A DNA stretch of 64,000 nucleotides from Mycobacterium sp. ACS1612. GTDB lineage: Bacteria > Actinomycetota > Actinomycetes > Mycobacteriales > Mycobacteriaceae. This document shows positions 25,216 through 30,434 of this stretch, piece by piece. How positions within the stretch are numbered: position 1 is the stretch's first letter; the number at the start of each line of letters is the position of its first letter. The position numbers and the translations under genes were made by a program. The DNA lies in NCBI RefSeq assembly GCF_001667505.1, contig NZ_LZHZ01000022.1:1-64000 (forward strand), read 5' to 3'. The notes under the pieces are model-generated. The model had not been told where the DNA came from. It did no database searches and saw nothing but the letters and a program-made list of their open reading frames with translations.

Positions 25216-25246
25216 GAGCCCACCGCCCAAAATCCTTTTCGAGAAA

Positions 25247-25281
25247 TTGTCAGAGTGGCGCCCGCTCGGTGCTCCTACCTG
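25247..25281 (+). promoter_or_regulatory. ECF-type promoter motif, copy 1
   Basis: TTGTCAGAG (TGTC at 25248-25251) is followed after exactly 19 bases by GCTCCTACCTGT (GCTCC at 25271-25275). The same bipartite pattern with identical spacing precedes three other genes of this island. It lies 53 bases before the ATG of the proline-rich membrane protein and would drive that gene and the sigma gene behind it. The A-rich flank (GAGAAA) just upstream also recurs. Confidence 0.6.
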
Positions 25282-25328
25282 TAACCGCGGCCCAACCGGG
25301 GCAGCGCAAGCAGACCAAGGAACCGATC

Positions 25329-25946
25329 ATGACCGCCACCGATCCGAACACCGCGACCATCGCCGCCGCGTGGGCGTCCAGCGAACTCGGCCAGCCGGAA
25401 CGGGAAGTCCGCTACGGCTTCCCACCCGCCGATCCGCCCGTATTCGAGCAGCGCAGGCCGCAACCCAGGCGGGCCATCCTCGTCGCGGCGCTGGCCGCCG
25501 GCGTCATCGGCGGCGCCGTCCTTGGCGTCACGCTGTTCGACTTCGGCGCCTCCTCACAGCCCCCGGTCGTGACACCGGCGCCTGAGCGTGCGGTCGTGGT
25601 CGGGCCGAGCATTCCCGCGCCCGTACCGCAGCAGGCCCCGGTCGTCGCGCCCGCACCTACGCGCGCACCGGCCGCCGTCGGCACGCCATCTGCCCCGGCG
25701 CCGGACTATCCGCCGCTGCCGCCCAAACCGGACGACTCGACTCCCGAACAGGAGCACCCCCAGCCCGAACCGCCGGATCCGGTGCCGCCGGTGCCGGACG
25801 ATCTGGGCTTCAAGCTGCAGGATCCGCCGAAGCCGAAGCCGGATCTCACGCCAGACCTGCCGCTGACGCCCGCACCCAAGCCGGACCCGAAGCCGCAACC
25901 GCCGAGCCTTCCGGACTTCGGCTTGCAGGCCCCGGTCAAGCCCTAG
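25329..25946 (+). CDS. Single-pass membrane protein with proline-rich outer domain
   Basis: 205 residues: a cytoplasmic N-terminus of about 48 residues, one transmembrane helix (ILVAALAAGVIGGAVLGVTL, about 50-69), then about 135 residues dominated by Pro, with Lys/Asp-Pro repeats near the end (PKPKPDLTPDLPLTP). No known domain. ATG 25329 is preceded by AAGGAACC. It lies 26 bases before the first sigma/anti-sigma fusion and is almost certainly co-transcribed with it from the ECF-type promoter at 25247-25281. The outer domain resembles in composition the C-termini of both sigma fusions, suggesting they work in the same cell-envelope space. I do not recognise a function. Confidence 0.75.
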   Translation: MTATDPNTATIAAAWASSELGQPEREVRYGFPPADPPVFEQRRPQPRRAILVAALAAGVIGGAVLGVTLFDFGASSQPPVVTPAPERAVVVGPSIPAPVPQQAPVVAPAPTRAPAAVGTPSAPAPDYPPLPPKPDDSTPEQEHPQPEPPDPVPPVPDDLGFKLQDPPKPKPDLTPDLPLTPAPKPDPKPQPPSLPDFGLQAPVKP

Positions 25947-25972: not shown

Positions 25973-27280
25973 ATGACCGCTGTACCGCATTGGAACATCG
26001 TGGAGCCGTCCGGATCCGACGGGGATCTGGTCCGGGCATCCGCTGCGGGCGACCGGACGGCGTTCGCGCTGCTCTACGACCGTTACGCCGACCGGTTGCA
26101 CGATTTCTGCGCCGGCATGCTGGCCGACCGGGACGGCGCGGCGGACTGCGTGCAGGACACGTTCTGCATCGCCGCGACGCGGCTGCCGCAGCTGCGCGAC
26201 CCGGACAAGTTGCGCCCATGGCTGTATTCGATCGCCCGTAACGAGGCGCTGCGCCGCATCCGCGGGCGTCGGCGCGAAACACCGTCGGAAGAGCTGCCCG
26301 ATATGGCTTCAGATGAAGCGGGTCCAGACACCCTGGCCGCGCGAACCGAACTCGCCGATTTGATCGCCGCCGCCGCGGGCGGGCTGTCGGATCGCGACCG
26401 CTCCGTGTTGGAGCTGGCGTTCCGGCACGGTCTCAGCGGACCCGATCTGGCCCACGCCCTTGACGTCACGCCAGCGACCGCCAATACCATCGTCAAGCGG
26501 CTGCGCGACACCATCGAACGATCGCTCGGTGCGCTGCTGGTGTCGCGGCGAGTGCGCAGCAACGGCGGCTGCGGTGAGCTCGCCGCGATGCTCGACGGAT
26601 GGGATGGCCATTTCAATGTCCTGATGCGCAAACGCATTTCGCGTCACATCGAGTCGTGCGCATACTGCGACGAGGAGCGTCGACGACTGGTCACCCCGGC
26701 GGCGCTTCTGGGCGCGGCCCCGGCGTTCATCCCAGCGCCGCAGTGGCTGCGCGAGCGCACGCTCAGCGAGATCAAGCTGACGTCGGCGACGAAACCCATT
26801 GGCGGCGAACGGGCCAGGCGCGGTCCGCCGGCGCCGGTCGCGGCGTTCCTGGTCGCGCTGCTGGCCGCGCTGGGGTTGACCGTCGCCTGGGTGAACACAC
26901 AACCAGCGGCCACCGTCGCGCCACCGATCACCGTCAGCGAGGCGGCGCGGCCGCCTGCGGTGCCTGCGCCACCGGTGATCGGTGTGCAACCGTCCGTGCC
27001 CGTCGCACCACCACCGCCGCCGCAGTGGACGCCGCGCGTGACGTCACCGACGTCGGCGCCAATATCTGTTGTACTGCAGCCAGTTTCAGAGCCGACACCG
27101 CAGCCACAGTCGAGCCCGGAGCCGCCCCCACCGCCGCCACCGCCGCCGCCGGACTGGACGGACTGGTTGCCGCCCTTACCACCCTGGCCGCTGCTGCCTG
27201 CGCCACCACCTCCGGGTGGTGACGTCACAGGTCCGGGCGACCTCGTCGCCCCGTCACCCGGTGGGTCGGCGGTGCCCTAG
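25973..27280 (+). CDS. ECF sigma factor fused to zinc-finger, TM helix and Pro-rich outer domain (copy 1)
   Basis: 435 residues. Sigma region 2 spans about 25-95 (FALLYDRYADRLHDFC, DCVQDTFCIAATR, LRPWLYSIARNEALRR). Sigma region 4 spans about 136-185 (LSDRDRSVLELAFRHGLSG, VTPATANTIVKRLRD). A zinc-binding anti-sigma-like motif H225-x3-C229-x2-C232 (SRHIESCAYCDEE) follows, then one membrane helix (about 288-306) and some 125 outer residues rich in Pro, with a run of ten Pro. Sigma and anti-sigma modules normally lie in two proteins; here they are one. ATG 25973 matches the paralogue's start (MTAxPxWNxV). It converges with the paralogue, stops seven bases apart. The regulatory role is inferred. 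Confidence 0.88.
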   Translation: MTAVPHWNIVEPSGSDGDLVRASAAGDRTAFALLYDRYADRLHDFCAGMLADRDGAADCVQDTFCIAATRLPQLRDPDKLRPWLYSIARNEALRRIRGRRRETPSEELPDMASDEAGPDTLAARTELADLIAAAAGGLSDRDRSVLELAFRHGLSGPDLAHALDVTPATANTIVKRLRDTIERSLGALLVSRRVRSNGGCGELAAMLDGWDGHFNVLMRKRISRHIESCAYCDEERRRLVTPAALLGAAPAFIPAPQWLRERTLSEIKLTSATKPIGGERARRGPPAPVAAFLVALLAALGLTVAWVNTQPAATVAPPITVSEAARPPAVPAPPVIGVQPSVPVAPPPPPQWTPRVTSPTSAPISVVLQPVSEPTPQPQSSPEPPPPPPPPPPDWTDWLPPLPPWPLLPAPPPPGGDVTGPGDLVAPSPGGSAVP

Positions 27281-27287
27281 CCGAGGT

Positions 27288-28595
27288 TCACGCGCCGCCG
27301 ACCCTGCTTCCGCCGGTCCTCGCACCGCCGCCGTCGTCGTTTCCGCCTGGGGTCGGCGGTCCTGGGCGGGGAGCGATCACGGTGGGGCTGAACGACATCG
27401 GTGGCTGCTGGGACGGTGGCGCGGCGTCGGGTGGCTCAACGGCTGGGGGTGCAGGCGGTTCGGCGGCGGGTGGCTGTTCGTAGACCGGCGACTTGCTGGG
27501 TGGCGCAGGCGAGTTCGGTACGGCAGGCGGTTGTGACCGTGGCTGCACGAGGGGTTGCTGCACGACGGGCGGCGGCGGCAACGGGCTGGGCGGCGCGGGA
27601 TTTTCGACGACGGGTTGCGGCGATGGCTCGCTGACCTCAGCGGGGATGATCGCCACCGGGTCCTTGTTCAGCCAAGCCAACGTCAGCGCGGCCGAGCCGC
27701 CGAGCACGGCGAGCACCATCGCGACCGCCACCGCCCACCGACGCTTGTGTGGGGTTCGACGACTGATCGCGCTGCCGTGCGAGGTCAGCTGGATCTCGCC
27801 AAGTGTCTTGTCGCGCAACCACTCCGGTGCGGGCATGAACACCGGTGCGGCACCGAGCAATGCGGCCGGGCTGACCAACCGTCGGCGCTCGTCGTCGCAC
27901 TTGGGGCACGACTCGATGTGCCGCGATATGCGTTTGCGCATCAGCACGGTGAACTGGCCGTCCCAGCTGGCGAGCATCTGGTCGAGTTCCGGGCAGTTGC
28001 CCGCTCGGCCTTGCGCACGCTGAGCCACCAGCAGCGCACCCAGTGACCGCTCGATCGTGACGCGTAGCCGCTTGACGATGGTGTTGGCGGTGGCCGGAGT
28101 GACCCCGAGTGCGTCGGCGAGAGCAGAACCGTTGAGGTCGTGGCGATACGCCAAGTCGAACACCGCCTTATCGCGGTCCGACAACCCGCCGGCGGCGTCG
28201 GCCAGCATCTGGGCGAGTTCGGTGCGGGCGGCCAGGGTGTCCGGTCCGGCGTCCTCGGACTGGACGTCGGGTAACTCGTCGGTGGGTGTCTCGCGACGCT
28301 GTTGCCGGAGTCGGCGCAACGCTTCGTTGCGGGCGATCGAATACAACCAGGGCCGCAGTTTGTCGGGTTCTCGTAGTTGGACCAGCCGTGTGGCGGCCAG
28401 GCAGAAGGTGTCCTGCACGCAGTCGGCGGCGCCGTCACGGTCGCGCAGCATGCCGACACAGAAGTCGTAAAGCCGATCGGCGTAGCGGTCATAGATCTGG
28501 GCGAACGCCGCTTTGTCGCCCGCGACGCTGCCGCTCACCAGTTCGGCGTCGGTGTTGCGCGGATCGACAAGGTTCCAGTCAGGAATCGCGGTCAT
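27288..28595 (-). CDS. ECF sigma factor fused to zinc-finger, TM helix and Pro-rich outer domain (copy 2)
   Basis: 435 residues, the same length and module order as its convergent neighbour. It has sigma region 2 (FAQIYDRYADRLYDFC, LRPWLYSIARNEALRR), sigma region 4 (LSDRDKAVFDLAYRHDLNG, VTPATANTIVKRLRV) and the zinc motif H226-x3-C230-x2-C233 (SRHIESCPKCDDE). One membrane helix (about 287-308) and a Pro-rich outer tail ending in Gly/Arg-rich sequence follow. The first 260 residues are very similar to copy 1, whereas the outer tails have diverged, so the copies probably share promoter recognition but sense different things. ATG 28595 has GGAGG upstream. Its own upstream region lacks a good copy of the island promoter motif. 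Confidence 0.88.
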   Translation of the reverse strand: MTAIPDWNLVDPRNTDAELVSGSVAGDKAAFAQIYDRYADRLYDFCVGMLRDRDGAADCVQDTFCLAATRLVQLREPDKLRPWLYSIARNEALRRLRQQRRETPTDELPDVQSEDAGPDTLAARTELAQMLADAAGGLSDRDKAVFDLAYRHDLNGSALADALGVTPATANTIVKRLRVTIERSLGALLVAQRAQGRAGNCPELDQMLASWDGQFTVLMRKRISRHIESCPKCDDERRRLVSPAALLGAAPVFMPAPEWLRDKTLGEIQLTSHGSAISRRTPHKRRWAVAVAMVLAVLGGSAALTLAWLNKDPVAIIPAEVSEPSPQPVVENPAPPSPLPPPPVVQQPLVQPRSQPPAVPNSPAPPSKSPVYEQPPAAEPPAPPAVEPPDAAPPSQQPPMSFSPTVIAPRPGPPTPGGNDDGGGARTGGSRVGGA

Positions 28596-28700
28596 TACGC
28601 CTCCTGCCAGGCAACTCCCTGACTAATTGGAGCAGCTGAGGACGTCATGCGCAAGGTTGGTGAATTTGCTGTCGGTCGCGAAAAATTCCTTGCCAAAAAG

Positions 28701-28736
28701 TTGTCGGCATGCCGCCGCGACGACGCTCCTACCTAT
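28701..28736 (+). promoter_or_regulatory. ECF-type promoter motif, copy 2
   Basis: AAAAAGTTGTCGGCATG (TGTC at 28702-28705), then after exactly 19 bases GCTCCTACCTATGA (GCTCC at 28725-28729). It lies 45 bases before the ATG of the four-helix membrane protein. Together with copy 4 this is the best match: the two share TGTCGGCATGC and the A-run upstream. It lies in the divergent region between the second sigma fusion and the membrane protein and points to the latter. Confidence 0.65.
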
Positions 28737-28774: not shown

Positions 28775-29341
28775 ATGACAACCACCGTAAGAAAAGCACC
28801 GATACTCGAAGCGATCACCATCGGACACTTCGACTTCTGGGGCGTCACATTCTGGCGCTGCTGCGGCGCCGTCTACGGCGCTCTTCTCGCGGCAGCGGCC
28901 ATCTGTGTTCTCGTGCTCGACGCGGTGGGCGTCAGCGATATCCCGAATATTGTGTGGCATCTGGTCATGTCGGTCGCCTTGCTGTACTGGGCCGCACGCA
29001 TGACGACCGAGGCCCGACGCGTGCAATCGGGCTGGATTGGCCGGACGACCGCGCTGTGGAGCACGAAGAAGAGCCGGTCGGGCACTCATGAGCAGTTCGC
29101 GAAGACGTGTCGCCGAGGGCTCGCGGTGTTGGGCAGTTTTTGCGTGTGCGTCGGCGCATTGTTGATCGTTCTCTGGGCGACCATCTGGCTTCGCGACGTG
29201 TACGCATCCGCGCTGCACAACGAGACTCGCCCCGAACTGTTCATCGACTTGCTTCATGTGTTCATCGGTTTGGCGTACCTGGCGTTCGGTGCAGTGGCCA
29301 TCGACAGCCACCGCGCCCTGGCCTCGCCCCGGCAGATCTGA
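28775..29341 (+). CDS. Four-helix integral membrane protein of unknown function
   Basis: 188 residues with four predicted membrane helices at about 26-52, 57-76, 113-139 and 155-176, and a basic cytoplasmic loop between helices 2 and 3. A Cys pair (RRCC-like WRCCG) lies at the start of helix 1. No family is recognised. ATG 28775 is preceded by ATAGGAGC at good spacing. It is divergent from the second sigma fusion and has the ECF-type motif 45 bases upstream, so it is a predicted target or partner of the sigma proteins. The gene looks intact. Confidence 0.7.
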   Translation: MTTTVRKAPILEAITIGHFDFWGVTFWRCCGAVYGALLAAAAICVLVLDAVGVSDIPNIVWHLVMSVALLYWAARMTTEARRVQSGWIGRTTALWSTKKSRSGTHEQFAKTCRRGLAVLGSFCVCVGALLIVLWATIWLRDVYASALHNETRPELFIDLLHVFIGLAYLAFGAVAIDSHRALASPRQI

Positions 29342-29391
29342 TGACGAGTTTCCCGTCACGCTGAGCTGCGACCGGAGCCCGAGCCACAAAA

Positions 29392-29427
29392 GTGTGGCTG
29401 CACCGCGGTGGCAGACCTCCTACCCAT
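29392..29427 (+). promoter_or_regulatory. ECF-type promoter motif, copy 3
   Basis: ACAAAAGTGTGGCTGC (TGTG at 29393-29396), then exactly 19 bases, then CCTCCTACCCATA (CCTCC at 29416-29420). The -35 has TGTG instead of TGTC and the -10 starts with C rather than G, so it is weaker than copies 2 and 4, but spacing and A-rich flank are the same. It lies 49 bases before the GTG of the small secreted ORF. Confidence 0.5.
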
Positions 29428-29469: not shown

Positions 29470-29687
29470 GTGAACGTCAACACCCATACCCGAAAGGGGC
29501 TTACTACCTGTGCGGTCACCGCGCTCGCCTTTGCCGCGGCGGGCGCTACCGCCAGTCCGGTCACCCGCCGTCGGCTGCCAAAGGCACTGCAGCCGTTGCA
29601 ATTTCGTCACCCACGCCGGCGTTGACCGCACTCGTCGCACCGAACCGGCTCTATGCGGAGACCGGCGCAGCGCCGGATACCGCGTAA
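29470..29687 (+). pseudogene. Small secreted protein gene, apparently frameshifted
   Basis: GTG 29470 has GTAGGGAGACC upstream and opens a good signal peptide: a basic start (NVNTHTRKG) then TCAVTALAFAAAGATASPV. This frame ends at 29623-29625 after an Arg-rich, protein-unlike stretch. In another frame, sequence from about 29565 reads PPSAAKGTAAVAISSPTPAL and goes on to a stop at 29685, looking like the true mature part of about 40 residues. A one-base shift between about 29556 and 29575 would join them. It has its own ECF-type promoter motif. It may be a recent loss-of-function mutation, a sequencing error or recoding. Confidence 0.5.
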
Positions 29688-29704
29688 AAGATTCTCGGCA
29701 AAAA

Positions 29705-29742
29705 GTGTCGGCATGCGGCCGCCTCGGCGCTCCCACCTATGA
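29705..29742 (+). promoter_or_regulatory. ECF-type promoter motif, copy 4
   Basis: CAAAAAGTGTCGGCATGC (TGTC at 29706-29709), then exactly 19 bases, then GCTCCCACCTATGA (GCTCC at 29729-29733). It is nearly identical to copy 2 over both elements. It lies 32 bases before the ATG of the lipoprotein gene, a normal promoter-to-start distance. Confidence 0.65.
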
Positions 29743-29765
29743 CACAACGAACGAAGGAGCAATTC

Positions 29766-30434
29766 ATGCCGAGCATCCAGACCCTCAAGAAAGTCATCCT
29801 TCCCGCCGCGATGGTTGGGCTGATGATTCCGCTGAGCGCCTGCGTCGCCCAAGGACCAGCCGACGCCAAGGACGCCGAGCCGGTCGCGCTCACAGCCACC
29901 GCGAGCGAGTGCACACGCGTCGACGCGCCGATGCTGGATATTCCGAGCGCACGCGACACCGAACCGCGGCTGCGGATACCGCAGCCGTCGGGGTGGCGGC
30001 CCACCAACGAGCTCGACGGAGTCGACGAAGCCGTTCGTTTCGCCATCGCGGCAGGGGACGGCCAGCGCCCCCAGGAGGTCGCGGTGGTCACGATGGAGCC
30101 GATCCCCGATGTCGATGCGCAACTGATCTTCGACGATTACCGGGCTCAGCTCGAGGACATGCTTGCCGCCAAGGATCTGTCGATGACCGTGCGGGCGACC
30201 GCCACCACGGTTTGCGGGCAGCCTGCCGAAACACTGTCCGTCACGAATCAGGCCGGCGGCGGACGGCAGGGCGCTCCTGCCACCCAGCTCGCGGTGGTGG
30301 CCGAGGGCGCCGACCAGACCTACTTGGTCACGCTGGTGACCACCGCGGCGCCCAACAGCGCGAAGTCGGAACACGAGGTCGCGACGATCTTGGCGGGATT
30401 CGCGGTGTTGCCGCCCGCGGCGAGCCAGTTGTGA
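29766..30434 (+). CDS. Lipoprotein, LpqN/LpqT-like
   Basis: 222 residues. The N-terminus has a basic start (MPSIQTLKK), a hydrophobic core (ILPAAMVGLMIPL) and the lipobox LSAC, so it is exported and lipid-anchored. The mature part contains IPQPSGWRPTNELDGVDEA and later VCGQPAETLSVTNQ, resembling the mycobacterial LpqN/LpqT family, although I cannot be certain by eye. ATG 29766 with AAGGAGC seven bases upstream is preferred over an upstream in-frame ATG at 29739. The ECF-type motif lies 32 bases ahead. A surface lipoprotein as sigma target fits an envelope-stress role. It converges with dinF. Confidence 0.75.
   Translation: MPSIQTLKKVILPAAMVGLMIPLSACVAQGPADAKDAEPVALTATASECTRVDAPMLDIPSARDTEPRLRIPQPSGWRPTNELDGVDEAVRFAIAAGDGQRPQEVAVVTMEPIPDVDAQLIFDDYRAQLEDMLAAKDLSMTVRATATTVCGQPAETLSVTNQAGGGRQGAPATQLAVVAEGADQTYLVTLVTTAAPNSAKSEHEVATILAGFAVLPPAASQL

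Follow-up and report, generated by a model that had tools for sequence, protein, structure and literature searches.

A 64,000-nucleotide stretch of contig NZ_LZHZ01000022.1 of Mycobacterium sp. ACS1612 (hereafter, the window) carries two convergent genes, alpha (25973..27280, + strand) and beta (27288..28595, - strand), each of which encodes a 435-residue extracytoplasmic function (ECF) sigma factor that continues, in the same chain, into a zinc-ligand segment, a predicted transmembrane (TM) helix and a proline-rich tail. Our preferred reading, to which we give a probability of roughly 60%, is that the two are a duplicated pair of membrane-held sigma factors, likely released by proteolysis, that would drive a small regulon marked by the promoter-like element TGTSNG-N18-CTCCTACC. 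The two open reading frames (ORFs), separated by a gap of 7 bases, have the positions, lengths and convergent arrangement that an earlier sequence-only reading of this DNA had given them. The kind of fusion was already known; the gene that shares an operon with alpha (the operon mate), the element, its leader and the relatives that have no TM helix are additions that were not met in the literature searched and were missing from the sequence-only reading.

Both proteins are ECF sigma factors, as judged by profile and structure matches to regions 2 and 4. Sigma region 2 (residues 15-105 of alpha, 26015..26287, +) was matched above the Pfam cut-off in each (3.3e-13 for alpha and 1.9e-12 for beta), as was the ECF superfamily model TIGR02937, while region 4 (residues 118-197 of alpha, 26324..26563, +) scored under the cut-off (0.0012 and 0.021, respectively). 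The domain calls of the sequence-only reading therefore hold by profile for region 2 and the ECF model, but region 4 and the zinc-finger family zf-HC2 stayed under their cut-offs. The region 4 family PF08281 was nevertheless matched at E<=0.1 in all 51 aligned homologues, a set made up of P0001, P0002 and 49 of the 118 further database proteins (56-89% identical) among the matches listed. The AlphaFold2 model of alpha was confident for the sigma domains and for the helices of the zinc segment, and of low confidence for the tail. In a Foldseek search with the sigma part, the top match was SigW from the SigW-RsiW complex, RsiW being a zinc anti-sigma factor, and the leading matches were ECF sigma factors in complex with anti-sigma factors; upon structural realignment region 2 of E. 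coli sigmaE ranked first and SigW second, in rows that span mainly residues 10-192, so that the lack of anti-sigma chains there carries no meaning. Three cysteines of region 2 (window positions 26108-26167; alpha residues 46, 59 and 65, with the same positions in beta) were also observed, of which two (C59 and C65) never vary among the 51 homologues and the third (C46) is at least 90% conserved; a redox role for them is possible.

The zinc-ligand segment follows at residues 200-247 of alpha (26570..26713, +) and 201-248 of beta (27852..27995, -). Direct reading gives the motif C200-x24-H225-x3-C229-x2-C232 in alpha and the ligands C201, H226, C230 and C233 in beta. These four ligands are invariant in the 51 aligned homologues, and all 50 family genes of the fetched loci have H-x3-C-x2-C (counts of these 50 genes exclude the duplicate loci L089 and L104). 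The published signature of zinc anti-sigma (ASDI/ZAS) domains, H-x3-C-x2-C spanning helices 2 and 3 (PMC7406223), is found here, with the helices seen in the predicted structures. Each protein has one strongly hydrophobic stretch, of mean hydropathy 2.49 in alpha and 2.23 in beta, predicted as a membrane helix at 26831..26899 (+; residues 287-309) in alpha, where AlphaFold2 also places a helix, and, from hydropathy, at 27672..27737 (-) in beta. The remainder is the tail, at 26900..27277 (+) in alpha and 27291..27671 (-) in beta, with proline shares of 37% and 31%. Motif reading, hydropathy and the AlphaFold2 helix of alpha thus bear out the one-chain order of sigma factor, zinc motif, TM helix and proline-rich tail proposed from sequence, and a sequencing artefact or a pair of split genes is ruled out because sigma domains and zinc motif lie in one frame in all 50 fetched family genes.

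Such proteins are catalogued in actinobacteria, as the sequence-only reading had held: ECF48, ECF52 and ECF53 are described as C-terminal fusions with a zinc finger and one or two TM helices, for which proteolytic release is expected (PMC8999054). Alpha and beta agree with what is published on ECF48, an actinobacterial group with a zinc-finger segment, a TM helix and a C-terminal extension of up to 400 residues, exemplified by WP_048473130.1 of Mycolicibacterium chlorophenolicum, and the general description of ECF53 (C-terminal zinc finger and TM helix) fits them as well; both fits are by description (PMC8999054). The only studied member met in the available text was the ECF52 protein SCO4117 of Streptomyces coelicolor, which resembles alpha and beta in its sigma factor, zinc finger, TM helix and proline-rich extension and for which autoregulation has been proposed. 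However, ECF52 ends in a carbohydrate-binding domain, whereas the tails of alpha and beta gave no Pfam domain up to E=1, and the motif proposed for SCO4117, CSGYN-17-SRHA, differs from the element described here (PMC5826349). IutY of Pseudomonas putida (ECF243) likewise has its anti-sigma part fused C-terminally to the sigma factor at the membrane and is released by proteolysis (PMC8999054), but it serves iron-starvation cell-surface signalling, belongs to another sigma group and has another tail. SigW-RsiW shares H-x3-C-x2-C with alpha and beta (PMC7406223) but consists of two proteins, in contrast to the single chain of each protein here. In the literature searched, as far as the sources were available, no operon mate, promoter or regulon was met for ECF48-type proteins, nor was CTCCTACC met there.

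The promoter-like element would tie the family to a set of candidate targets. In the window, as in many relatives, a run of A followed by TGTSNG-N18-CTCCTACC stands upstream of the operon mate gene; the window copy occupies 25243..25279 (+), with TGTCAG at 25248-25253 and CTCCTACC at 25272-25279, and matches the core exactly. Exact matches to the core TGTCNG-N18-CTCCTACC number three across the 6.8 Mb genome, two of them at this locus: one before the mate-alpha operon, one before the gene at 28775-29341 and one, on another contig, before the gene for a small secreted-looking protein. At up to two mismatches the window holds six core matches compared with 1.3 expected, a number reached in none of 100 shuffles. 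Of 396 genomes of the genus, 40 have the strict pattern, AAANNTGTSNG-N18-CTCCTACC (reversed control, 0/396), and 36 of those 40 are among the 78 genomes with a family relative at 1e-60 (Fisher 7e-25, which overstates independence because the genomes are related). For the core TGTSNG-N18-CTCCTACC, 48 chosen genomes gave 12 positives among 20 with the family and four among 28 without it, the latter picked from genomes that had no match in the family searches (reversed control, 2/48); those four matches have no A-run, and neither does one in the family-positive genome G058. Nineteen of the 50 fetched family genes have a slightly relaxed core no more than 1.5 kb upstream, on their own strand, the one at L047 being unlike the others, and the element heads the sigma operon at several unlinked loci. 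Chance as the source of the element is ruled out by the reversed-pattern and shuffle controls. A 37-base version of it had no match in viral contigs.

The operon mate (25329..25946, +) encodes 205 residues with AWASSELGQP in the N-terminal part, one predicted TM helix, a proline-rich tail and no Pfam match. A mate-type gene lies before alpha in all eight alpha loci and before seven other family genes, 15 of 50 in total, a count without four beta rows that have alpha as the neighbour and without one small protein that looks secreted. A database search with the mate gave 43 proteins, itself among them; no Pfam domain was found in any, and all readable names were hypothetical protein. Beyond the start of beta lie three further elements, all on the + strand. 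The first (28697..28733), an exact strict pattern, precedes the gene divergent from beta, a predicted target that encodes a hydrophobic, membrane-like protein of 188 residues without a Pfam match (28775..29341, +). The second (29388..29424; two mismatches to the core) is followed by a leader stem-loop and a 51-residue ORF with a signal-peptide-like start (29470..29625, +), which ends early and may represent either a disrupted gene for a secreted protein or a very short one. The third (29701..29737; one mismatch to the core) precedes a predicted target for an LpqN-like lipoprotein (29766..30434, +; PF10738 at 7.1e-7, obtained with the extended in-frame ORF 29739-30434). Gene classes that recur after the element in the fetched loci are mate-type genes, alpha/beta hydrolases (the one tested matched PF00561 at 7e-36), a protein of 128-151 residues and small secreted-looking proteins, one of them rich in Trp and His. 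The 128-151-residue protein was seen after the element in L119, L123 and L155, and the one tested, from L119, matched no more than the C-terminal end of the aminotransferase class I/II profile.

A second shared feature lies between the element and the start codon. Leader length is 28-54 bases (median 49) in the 62 cases where a start was assigned, and 41 non-redundant leaders were taken from 68 records of the fetched loci, which are not a random sample, after short leaders, near-duplicates and row L058p4215 had been dropped. Compared with dinucleotide shuffles, the fold energy of these 41 had a mean z of -1.31, with 68% below -1; a stem of at least five pairs was present in 32, the best stem exceeded the mean of its own shuffles in 38, and the centre of the loop lay 16.0 (sd 1.5) bases past CTCCTACC. 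The letters of the stem vary and pairing is kept in most leaders. For the mRNA of the mate-alpha operon the predicted stem-loop falls at 25286..25306 (+), placed via the leader fold of the G544 orthologue (L056m726). No known RNA family matched the leader at the gathering threshold, and RNAalifold gave no consensus structure on the MAFFT leader alignment, so per-leader folds were used instead. We read the dyad as an RNA stem-loop common to much of the regulon, with a DNA operator as the alternative. The leader of the lipoprotein gene, at only 28 bases, is too short for the stem-loop.

Taken together, these features suggest a mechanism in which alpha and beta would stay inactive, held at the membrane, until the tail receives a signal, with the zinc segment folded back on the sigma factor so as to block polymerase binding. 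Two cuts, the first outside the membrane and the second within it by an M50 site-2-type protease, would yield free sigma factor; M50 protease genes are present. The element would be the promoter of this sigma factor, with TGTCNG as the -35 box, CTCCTA as the -10 box and a spacer of 18, so that the mate-alpha operon would be autoregulated, the mate may act as a co-sensor, and the freed sigma factor would transcribe a small envelope regulon fed by two outer tails. The element, the candidate targets and the mate make the expected proteolytic release testable, and with it the signal and target genes of the pair.

A number of observations weigh against this reading. By profile, zf-HC2 stayed under the Pfam cut-off (0.11 for beta, alpha unlisted) and was matched at E<=0.1 in four of the 51 homologues, and the isolated zinc segment gave a weak model (predicted local distance difference test score, pLDDT, 56.7) whose sole fold match, at E 9, was not usable. 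The window site of the alpha operon matches the core only, its A-run being closer by one base than the strict pattern allows, and the leader of the 28775 gene folds no better than its shuffles (z +1.45); these two facts slightly lowered our confidence. No element was found upstream of the window beta on its own strand, and the six family genes without a TM helix gave one match only, a dissimilar one. At one mismatch the genome has 11 sites versus 6 for the reversed control, for which reason inexact sites were used only where their context was right. The strict element is absent from 42 of the 78 family-positive genomes, some of which have variants such as TGTCCC. Conversely, genomes G013, G051, G378 and G462 have the element and no family match even at 1e-10; in G051, G462 and G378 an element match lies near the end of a contig (at a distance of 109, 304 and 523 bases, respectively), so that a sigma gene would be cut off there, but G013 has no such explanation. 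Finally, the presumed recognition helix of region 4 differs among paralogues in other genomes and in the TM-less forms.

Six of the 50 fetched family genes are of the TM-less kind and end just past the zinc segment (250-266 residues) and the other 44 have more C-terminal chain, although in the G474 beta the frame ends before the TM helix. All six retain the zinc ligands, and the element occurs in nine of 15 genomes whose only matches end near residue 250, a class that is our own assignment and that includes G349 and G455, whose open frames are longer. In such genomes the element sometimes stands before a mate-type membrane gene (L153, L157 and L159). These comparisons suggest that sigma factor and zinc segment together make a viable unit, and that the element can persist after the membrane part has gone; the TM-less relatives are natural controls for the role of the membrane part. 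In them no membrane release step is needed, which would suit an alternative in which the sigma factor is active at the membrane, a tail signal shifting the zinc segment so that polymerase binds without proteolysis, or in which the zinc segment is merely structural. We regard this as unlikely, given that proteolysis is the published expectation for ECF48, ECF52 and ECF53 and is described as shown for IutY (PMC8999054).

It is less probable still that the element belongs to another regulator, either a DNA-binding protein or a different sigma factor, that is co-inherited with the family, the dyad being its operator. The co-occurrence of element and family is confounded by the kinship of the genomes, the four element-positive genomes without a family member and the 42 family genomes without the strict element would be accommodated, and the dyad past CTCCTACC can be read as DNA. 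On the other hand, it is the sigma operon itself that is headed by the element, and at loci that are unlinked; the two boxes with their fixed 18-base spacer are as in sigma promoters; and most leaders retain the pairing of the stem even as its sequence varies, a constraint not required of an operator. A wider reading, less likely than not, can be put forward tentatively: the family would have a private promoter and, on most target classes, a private leader stem-loop; the mate would be a co-sensor with a look-alike proline-rich tail; the window pair would present two sensors and one DNA-reading face; and in other lineages a soluble sigma-zinc-finger protein, having lost its membrane part, would run the same regulon, with the mate remaining a separate membrane protein.

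Alpha and beta are 65% identical over 336 aligned columns and are the only close family members in their genome, where five weaker matches range from 5e-10 to 5e-6; a scan of genome contigs with a single protein query returned one locus. At 1e-25, 14 genomes out of 200 from the order have a relative. The alpha clade (90/91), the beta clade (100/97) and the two jointly (98/96) are all recovered in a 62-row tree, so that the origin of alpha and beta by duplication, as proposed in the sequence-only reading, is supported. The identical length that had been offered as evidence for it is not, because intact orthologues of either copy range from 429 to 452 residues, with shorter, cut ones in addition; we consider the equal length a coincidence.

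The tails of the copies have diverged. Fourteen alpha and 17 beta rows chosen by hand were compared, leaving aside the short G544 alpha, the interrupted G474 beta and the G473 alpha, which has no end motif; similarity, and not the tree, decided the assignment of rows P0005 and P0036 and of every beta row except P0122 and those from the loci. The mean top-residue fraction in mid-tail is 0.54 and 0.56, compared with 0.85-0.92 for the sigma domains, yet GPx(D/N/G)(L/I) stands near the end in 12 of the 14 alpha rows (TGPxDL in seven; TGPGDL in the window) and PPMSF is kept in 16 of the 17 beta rows (PPMSFSPTV in the window). As far as these sequences tell, the outer parts have diverged, as had been claimed, yet each copy has mostly retained its own end peptide. 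In addition, the presumed recognition helix, TPATANTIVKRLR, is identical between the window alpha and beta; because it is identical while the tails end differently, two outer sensors feeding one regulon is the simplest model. A quite improbable alternative is plain duplication followed by drift, with beta redundant and decaying and the tails unconstrained spacers. It would draw on the poor conservation of mid-tail and on damaged copies: the G544 alpha (L085) stops early in its tail, at 390 residues, the G474 beta (L088) has an in-frame stop, and G473 has an alpha without the tail end motif and no beta within the fetched 14 kb. From the first two it follows that copies are sometimes lost. The end peptides kept in the chosen rows argue against drift, as does region 2 of beta, which is conserved like that of alpha (0.92 and 0.88).

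The convergent arrangement was not upheld as the original state. The locus is flanked by an enoyl-CoA hydratase gene on one side and a MATE/DHH/infB block on the other, and this slot holds one copy in G089 and G473, a head-to-tail pair in G011, G281 and G447, and a convergent pair in the window, G544 and M. deserti; a fourth head-to-tail pair, in G474, lies outside the slot. Since alpha or the single copy keeps the same orientation relative to the flanks in all eight slot loci, the inversion of beta would be the derived change, and the head-to-tail order in sister genomes makes the convergent layout look derived. In the tree, one clade unites P0122 with the betas of all three convergent loci (100/90), but the M. 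deserti alpha groups weakly with the alpha of the head-to-tail G447 (81/81), a grouping that a single inversion would not simply explain. The single-copy loci do not prove a state that precedes the duplication, because the G089 copy forms a long branch that falls outside the clade of alpha and beta, and the G473 copy is an alpha.

Two minor observations concern other members of the family. In G381, G400 and G558 a second pair of neighbouring, more distant members lies on one strand (L090, L091 and L092), and the distant copy there has the terminal sequence PPMSVAPPSFEAPPPP, similar to the beta motif. In L032, L033 and L034, which are from other families of the order, a Ser/Thr/Pro-rich stalk leads to a longer, less proline-rich end, which we would guess to be Ig-like.

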